IMG/VR virus record: IMGVR_UViG_3300048115_000358
Location: 1-42,006 of that record
Source of the DNA: a virus
Length of the DNA stretch: 42,006 nucleotides
Strand: one strand, 5' to 3'
Shown here: in pieces, positions 27,300 through 27,715 of the stretch
Numbering within the stretch: the stretch's first letter is position 1
How the letters are laid out: each line of letters begins with the position of its first letter
Notes under the pieces: generated by a model
What the model was told of the DNA's origin: nothing
The model's input: only the letters and a program-made list of their open reading frames with translations
Database searches by the model: none
Position numbers and translations under genes: made by a program

Positions 27300-27715
27300 T
27301 GGGATCTCTGTCCCGTGAAGAAGCCATAATTGCCCTGTTGCCAGGACAATTAAAAAATGGCTGTACAGAAAATTCTTGTCTTATCTGTCCCTTGCTCATC
27401 GCCTCTATGTCTAAGTTAGTCGCTAGTTACGACGGAGTCGGTTGGCGATCCCTCCTTAACTTAGTATTGCGTCTTTCGACCCAACGGCACTTTTTATAAT
27501 CCACATAGATAGAAACTATAAAAAGCAGATAGTGTTATAAAAACCTATCATCGGTAATATTATTACTAGTCAACCATGTCCTTCGGGGACCATGGCTGTT
27601 TTATGATTATGAATACTCTTTGTGGTTAACGAGAAGAATGTCAGAATTCATCCTGACTAGTCCGACGGCAAACACTACGTTTGCAATCTCAATCCCGTGT
27701 CGGCAACCCGACAAA
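27300..27715 (-). ncRNA. Unclassified structured RNA candidate
   Basis: Paired elements, in plus-strand coordinates: 27698-27713 (6 bp), 27668-27684 (6 bp), 27640-27657 (5-6 bp), 27574-27595 (8 bp, one bulge), a junction closed by 27411-27418 with 27457-27464 (8 bp) that encloses two hairpins, and a long stem 27323-27361. Loop bases 27441-27445 can pair with 27481-27485 to form a pseudoknot. Read on the minus strand, the long stem is capped by a GCAA tetraloop and has a G-U pair that would be a C-A mismatch on the plus strand. Another hairpin is capped by GAAA. These support minus-strand transcription. I do not recognise a known class; ends are approximate. Confidence 0.5.

Follow-up and report, generated by a model that had tools for sequence, protein, structure and literature searches.

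A large structured RNA family outside Rfam encoded by jumbo phages from marine, freshwater, and gut environments

The window analyzed here is a 42,006-nucleotide stretch of viral DNA (IMG/VR record IMGVR_UViG_3300048115_000358) from a T4-related jumbo phage, whose portal protein is nearest to those of PA5oct, Phosso, Atu_ph07, and other jumbo myophages; one homologous contig is 342 kb in size. A structured non-coding RNA lies in this window between a baseplate hub gene, directly followed by a small gp51-like ORF, and a PDDEXK resolvase gene, with all of these on the minus strand. The original prediction, made from the sequence of the window, had placed a large structured RNA in a gene-free stretch of about 415 bases (27300-27715). 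The stretch is indeed not coding, but the conserved RNA is larger and continues to 27193. The RNA is real, intricately folded, and about 500 letters long (~540 nt). The features of the locus are as follows.

28019-28864, minus strand: T4-type baseplate hub gene, neighbor (Pfam 1.4e-16, PHROG 150)
27935-27964, minus strand: predicted sigma70-type promoter TTGACA-N18-TACAAT, the best site within 300 bases upstream of the RNA
27193-27729, minus strand: structured non-coding RNA including the 3' tail (alignment A1)
27622-27724, minus strand: 5' domain closed by P1 (GUGG 27721-27724 with CCAC 27622-27625; RNAalifold consensus)
27699-27712, minus strand: hairpin P2, covarying (E=0 in 200 null alignments)
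27664-27688, minus strand: hairpin P4 (RNAalifold consensus)
27640-27657, minus strand: hairpin P5, covarying (E=0)
27609-27651, minus strand: candidate pseudoknot Pk1, P5 loop AUGAAU (27646-27651) with AUUCAU (27609-27614)
27571-27598, minus strand: hairpin P6 (E=0.045)
27423-27569, minus strand: candidate pseudoknot Pk2, CUAG (27566-27569) with the P12 loop CUAG (27423-27426; E 0.6 as a 4-bp helix)
27528-27549, minus strand: hairpin P7 (E=0.19; 90% paired)
27490-27525, minus strand: hairpin P8 (7 of 9 pairs with changes on both sides)
27405-27508, minus strand: pseudoknot Pk3, P8 loop CUAUGU (27503-27508) with ACAUAG (27405-27410; 4 of 6 pairs covary, 96.7% paired)
27471-27480, minus strand: hairpin P9 with a GAAA loop (E=0)
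27441-27485, minus strand: core pseudoknot Pk4, GUUGG (27481-27485) with CCAAC (27441-27445; 100% paired)
27411-27464, minus strand: helix P10 (CUAAGUU 27458-27464 with AACUUAG 27411-27417), closing the P11-P12 junction (5 of 7 pairs covary)
27434-27455, minus strand: hairpin P11 (2 of 4 pairs covary)
27419-27433, minus strand: hairpin P12 (E=0)
27328-27351, minus strand: hairpin P13 with a GCAA loop, conserved in all marine loci
27217-27249, minus strand: tail hairpin (GAGUGAAACGAA), conserved, with a counterpart in the freshwater clade
27193-27206, minus strand: near-invariant 3' hairpin AGGUCUUUAGACCU (invariant columns of alignment A1), a probable terminator or processing site
26630-27172, minus strand: PDDEXK_15 / RusA-like resolvase gene, neighbor (Pfam 4e-26, PHROG 244)

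The minus strand between 27295 and 27760 (466 nt) folds at -135.7 kcal/mol (z -4.2), an energy that none of 100 dinucleotide shuffles reached, and the plus strand of the same stretch folds much more weakly (z -2.2). For the alignment of 41 full-length distinct sequences, the RNAalifold consensus reached -197.8 kcal/mol, compared with -59.8 (sd 9.3, best -83.4) in 40 structure-free alignments simulated along the tree; since many contigs are near-identical, the 41 represent fewer independent lineages, about 14 at 90% identity. In a helix-level test against 200 phylogeny-simulated null alignments, the values of P2, P5, P9, and P12 were never reached by chance, P6 followed at E 0.045, and several helices, candidate pseudoknots among them, fell between 0.08 and 0.8. 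When 20 diverse cores were aligned, 93.6% of cells could pair (83.4% in shuffled alignments and at most 44.1% when slid by 1-3 columns), 26 of the 44 core pairs showed changes on both sides (14.2 when shuffled), and the covariation score was 0.363 (0.168 when shuffled); the structure used was drawn from the window sequence, which favors that structure in the count of paired cells and not in that of double changes. The original prediction had named covariation above background as the test of the fold, and the covariation found is far above the shuffled, slid, and phylogeny-simulated controls.

Much of the predicted architecture was also recovered in detail. The hairpins, at least six in number, are present at the claimed place on the minus strand, the GAAA and GCAA tetraloops are those of P9 and P13, and the junction described as closed by 8 bp, with its two arms, corresponds to helix P10 enclosing P11 and P12. 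The loop-loop pseudoknot that had been suspected at the P5 loop (Pk1) is weakly supported (E 0.54), but two others, Pk3 and Pk4, are well supported. The arms of Pk3 change together by clade (CUAUGU:ACAUAG, AUGUAU:AUACAU, AUGUGU:ACACAU, and CUGUUU:AAACAG), and the variable pair of Pk4, which has the general form GUUGR / YCAAC with the latter in the P11 loop, is the top pair in an alignment-wide G-test. For Pk2, other clades have CCAG/CUGG, a compensatory change visible in alignment A1.

No reading frame is open throughout the homologues, their indels are not multiples of three, and the single ORF of at least 60 amino acids over the RNA (27299-27499, plus strand, 66 aa) is without a family match. 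ARAGORN found no tRNA or tmRNA in the 42-kb window. At the Rfam gathering score, neither the window nor its relatives gave a match, while the ffs RNA used as a positive control was found; up to E 10, there was no match around the RNA of the window and two evident chance matches outside it. This agrees with the original prediction, which could not assign the RNA to a known class.

The predicted window promoter lies on the same strand as the RNA, within the 3' portion of the small gp51-like ORF, and the same type of position recurs across the window clade; since it is inside coding sequence, its conservation may be partly coding. Of 56 distinct marine loci, 54 have a sigma70-like site upstream of the RNA, on its strand, that scores above the 95th percentile of the shuffles. 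Together, the fold energy and the conserved promoter support the minus strand as that of the RNA, as had been predicted. An array of CTAATA-like repeats (27744-27800, minus strand), with equivalents in marine loci, lies between the promoter and the RNA; a role of these repeats as late promoters was rejected, as within the window they are not specific to late genes.

Relatives of the RNA are widespread. With the resolvase protein as bait, 31 loci were retrieved from IMG/VR, and in most of them the RNA lies in front of the gene at ~68-100% DNA identity, the exceptions being L028, L030, and L031. A core pattern (TGCCGTTGRNNCGNAAGNNGCAATA) matched 87 stretches, and all of the matches listed beyond the first set have the same flanking architecture. 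With the baseplate hub as bait, 62 loci had hub identity of at least 52%, and 61 of them have the RNA behind the gp51-like ORF; in the lone exception the sequence stops 315 bases past the hub. Where hub identity is 33-36%, the gp51-like ORF and an opposite-strand nuclease are separated by gaps of ~500 bases. The marine core model gave weak matches (E 0.06-1.5) in L269, L270, L272, and L273 at GUUCCGUUGAUA...GGGGGUACCGGUCAACCGCCUCCG, and these elements, used as a pattern, match at least 120 IMG/VR stretches of a freshwater clade, in which the RNA is typically located directly 3' of a GIY-YIG nuclease gene on the same strand; in L028, an RNA of the freshwater type lies behind a PDDEXK gene. Promoters of the marine GIY-YIG clade are of the TTGACA-N17-TTAGTAT type and are located between genes. 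The marine and freshwater clades have in common a CCGUUGN...NCAACC pseudoknot, a similar terminal hairpin, and tail hairpins.

The gaps behind the hub in six further loci (L264-L268 and L271) are conserved and strongly structured, with a long perfect hairpin (CAGACGGAACC...GGUUCCGUCUG), and form a third marine clade; the core models did not match these gaps, which may contain a further diverged member of the family. Two other loci, L280 and L284, were rejected as members because their loose-pattern matches arose by chance. BLASTN searches of phage records found no homologue of the window RNA and a GIY-YIG-clade relative, nor of the freshwater RNA (one further query was a contig end that partly covered the RNA). 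The core model likewise did not match PA5oct, Phosso, SCTP-2, or Atu_ph07. In the same slot, PA5oct (L123 1479-2991) and Phosso (L125 1987-3000) have long, gene-free, stably folding stretches (z -5.5 and -4.4, respectively), from which the core motif is absent; that of PA5oct is annotated with four tiny, doubtful-looking ORFs. Across L078, L127, the window, and L028, the resolvase position behind the RNA is occupied by unrelated nucleases (GIY-YIG, EndoVII, and PDDEXK_15) in a constant neighborhood, apparently the result of non-homologous displacement of a packaging or branch nuclease.

The same slot is present in cultured enteric jumbo phages, where 121Q, BF, GAP32, CBB, Munch, Hallingskeid, and others have ~600-840 gene-free bases between the hub/gp51-like genes and EndoVII. 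In Hallingskeid, small hypothetical ORFs are drawn over the RNA. In the Salmonella phage Munch (L166 3026-3982), the RNA and EndoVII are separated by a further ORF that may be an inserted gene of the homing type. By BLASTN, the enteric RNA sequence was found in 40 phage records at several places per genome, with four copies in 121Q, five in BF and Munch, about five in GAP32, CBB, XbC2, XaC1, and Hallingskeid, and three partial copies in RaK2. An alignment of 34 copies supports 11 helices at E<=0.02 against 100 simulated nulls. An RNA on the same strand as the hub was rejected on motif and promoter evidence, and the opposite strand was adopted; on it, the 34 copies carry CGACCGUUGC-N-GAGAGAAACAGAGCAACCCGC or close variants, and the core pairs are compensatory (GUUGC:GCAAC, GUUGU:ACAAC, and GUUAC:GUAAC). 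Most of 33 copies have a predicted promoter of the form TGAAAC or similar -N17-TGNTATAAT some 350-410 bases upstream, and in 79% of the 33 the site exceeds the 95th percentile.

We consider the enteric RNA of 121Q, BF, GAP32, Munch, and RaK2 to be probably homologous to the marine and freshwater RNA because of the shared core motif, with Pk4 common to the freshwater and enteric families, and because the joint marine-freshwater core model matches a RaK2 copy (E 4.2e-5; 7.6e-5 for the whole genome). The same model did not match the other enteric copies, to which profile-HMM matches were weak (E 0.02-9, with none from reversed decoys), and whole-profile HMM comparison of the marine and enteric families gave no match in either direction; the common core emerged once the opposite strand of the enteric RNA was considered and the freshwater clade served as a link.

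The RNA has also entered a bacterial genome. Among 5,426 complete E. coli genomes, two, LR-29-1 (L418) and EEC_W5 (L419), carry a single copy, with 70.6% identity to 121Q and 80.6% to the hub-site copy of BF, an intact core, and an extended -10 promoter. Each lies in a ~10-kb island of 39% GC at ffs (L418 10958-21302) with a split integrase and a resolvase; the two islands are 99.99% identical and therefore represent one event. PADLOC lists the candidates PDC-M45A/C (DuOB, DUF488) in the island, plus mSLOG-DUF4326, and it is possible that the island is a jumbo-phage satellite or a defense island. The RNA was found on no plasmid, and two core patterns were absent from 84,980 GTDB genomes, in which such exact patterns would miss divergent copies.

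As for what the RNA does, the most likely explanation, to which we assign a probability of roughly 0.5, is that it is an autonomous RNA gene whose product, an RNA of the GOLLD/ROOL kind, would act in trans as a scaffold or within an RNP. A gene of its own, and not a leader, is favored because the slot is constant while the strand varies, the adjoining nucleases are of three unrelated kinds, and the RNA has dedicated promoters and is present in multiple copies. Transcription by host-type RNA polymerase would start at the predicted sigma70-like promoter ~210 bases before the fold and would stop, or the transcript would be processed, at the conserved 3' hairpin, yielding an RNA of some 700 bases in total, about 430 of which form the pseudoknotted core. 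We infer that, during infection, the folded RNA may then serve as a scaffold or together with a putative partner in an RNP, and the additional gene copies of enteric jumbo phages would raise its dose. GOLLD and ROOL are large ornate RNAs of phages and prophages whose function is unknown, with pseudoknots in ROOL (PMC12286853). The window RNA resembles them in being several hundred bases long, phage-encoded, and without an associated ORF, and in its elaborate, covarying, pseudoknotted fold. It differs in having no Rfam match to either, in its fixed slot between baseplate hub and resolvase, and in its multiple copies in enteric phages; moreover, GOLLD and ROOL are often near tRNA genes, whereas the window RNA is not beside a tRNA island. 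Large ORF-less RNAs are also found in ICP1, whose most abundant transcript is an RNA of ~800 bases without a known role, and in its satellite PLE, which likewise has an abundant one, the IIR transcript (PMC7567579). The core model did not match the ICP1 region that holds the ~800-base RNA (L510).

The main rival, possible but in our estimation unlikely, is that the RNA is a replication-origin preprimer, which would be made at dispersed origins, fold co-transcriptionally, and prime the leading strand from an R-loop. ColE1 RNA II is a structured transcript of about 500 nt with its own promoter, T4 origin transcripts arise at dispersed sites, and in both cases the transcript hybridizes to the template as an R-loop and primes leading-strand synthesis. 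The RNA described here, also about 500 nt and structured, resembles RNA II in having its own predicted promoter and the T4 origins in its dispersed sites. The arrangement of the enteric copies fits such a role, as they are evenly spaced (p 0.006 in BF and 0.05 in 121Q) and co-oriented on one strand per genome even where local genes run opposite, and an increase in GC skew follows 13 of the 16 copies examined (circular shifts with 10-kb flanks, p 0.006; with 5 kb, p 0.09). A model in which the RNA acts purely in trans and by dose would not predict even spacing, uniform orientation, or a rise in skew. An integrative element would also need its helper's origin, and the E. coli island has one copy of the RNA. 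However, the skew and spacing tests were chosen with the data already in view and were applied to related genomes, and their outcome is confounded by gene orientation. In G015 and Munch the RNA does not coincide with the minimum of the skew, which in G001 lies 19 kb from the RNA, and the several pseudoknots, in a fold much more strongly conserved than in the ColE1 and T4 origin transcripts, are not obviously needed by a primer.

Less probable still is an RNA directed against the host or a competitor, expressed early as a decoy or inhibitor of a defense system or of a host RNA-binding protein, which the island would have captured for use against phage. The host-type promoters are consistent with this idea, as is the island copy, its core and promoter intact beside the candidate defense genes PDC-M45A/C, but conservation across very different hosts is contrary to a host-specific target.

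A cis-acting leader controlling the downstream nuclease gene is improbable and has been largely refuted. A same-strand nuclease gene does come next, about 20-100 bases after the RNA, in the window and some 60 marine loci. Yet L263 has a different gene after the RNA, with no nuclease directly following, and keeps the 3' hairpin AGGUCUUUAGACCU there, and the nucleases elsewhere come from three unrelated families. Order and strand also differ among clades, in place of the conserved 5' position on the same strand expected of a leader: relative to the hub and the nuclease, respectively, the RNA is on the same and the same strand in the window, on the opposite and the same strand in the freshwater clade, where it is 3' of the nuclease, and on the opposite strand to both at the enteric hub site. 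Finally, a mobile-element remnant such as a self-splicing intron, which structured RNA adjoining nuclease genes and several copies in some genomes might suggest, is rejected, as the window has no Rfam match to a group I or group II intron even at E 10 and the RNA is intergenic at orthologous positions across genera (the Dps, dam, and hub sites).

A broader picture, tentative and itself rather unlikely, would be that of one ancient family, defined by the CCGUUGN...NCAACC pseudoknot and core to many T4-related jumbo phages, whose enteric copies mark three to five evenly spaced, co-oriented sites of replication or genome handling and which a bacterial island captured to exploit or block these phages.

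In the public records, the stretch is empty or filled with small hypothetical ORFs, and the family is unmarked in the annotations and the searched literature of cultured jumbo phages. A full-text search found no description of the RNA, in a literature from which most subscription journals were missing, so that an earlier notice is possible; the closest papers were that on GOLLD, ROOL, and OLE (PMC12286853) and that on the ICP1 and PLE transcriptome (PMC7567579). Large ornate RNAs are rare and of unknown function, and a large RNA family outside Rfam is present in jumbo phages from marine, freshwater, and gut habitats. The data presented here imply that gene-free gaps of several hundred bases in jumbo phages, some of them annotated with small hypothetical ORFs, are RNA genes, and the E. 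coli island copy ties the RNA to a possible jumbo-phage satellite or defense element. Since the family is present in cultured jumbo phages of E. coli, Salmonella, Serratia, Klebsiella, Cronobacter, and Xanthomonas, its role is directly testable.
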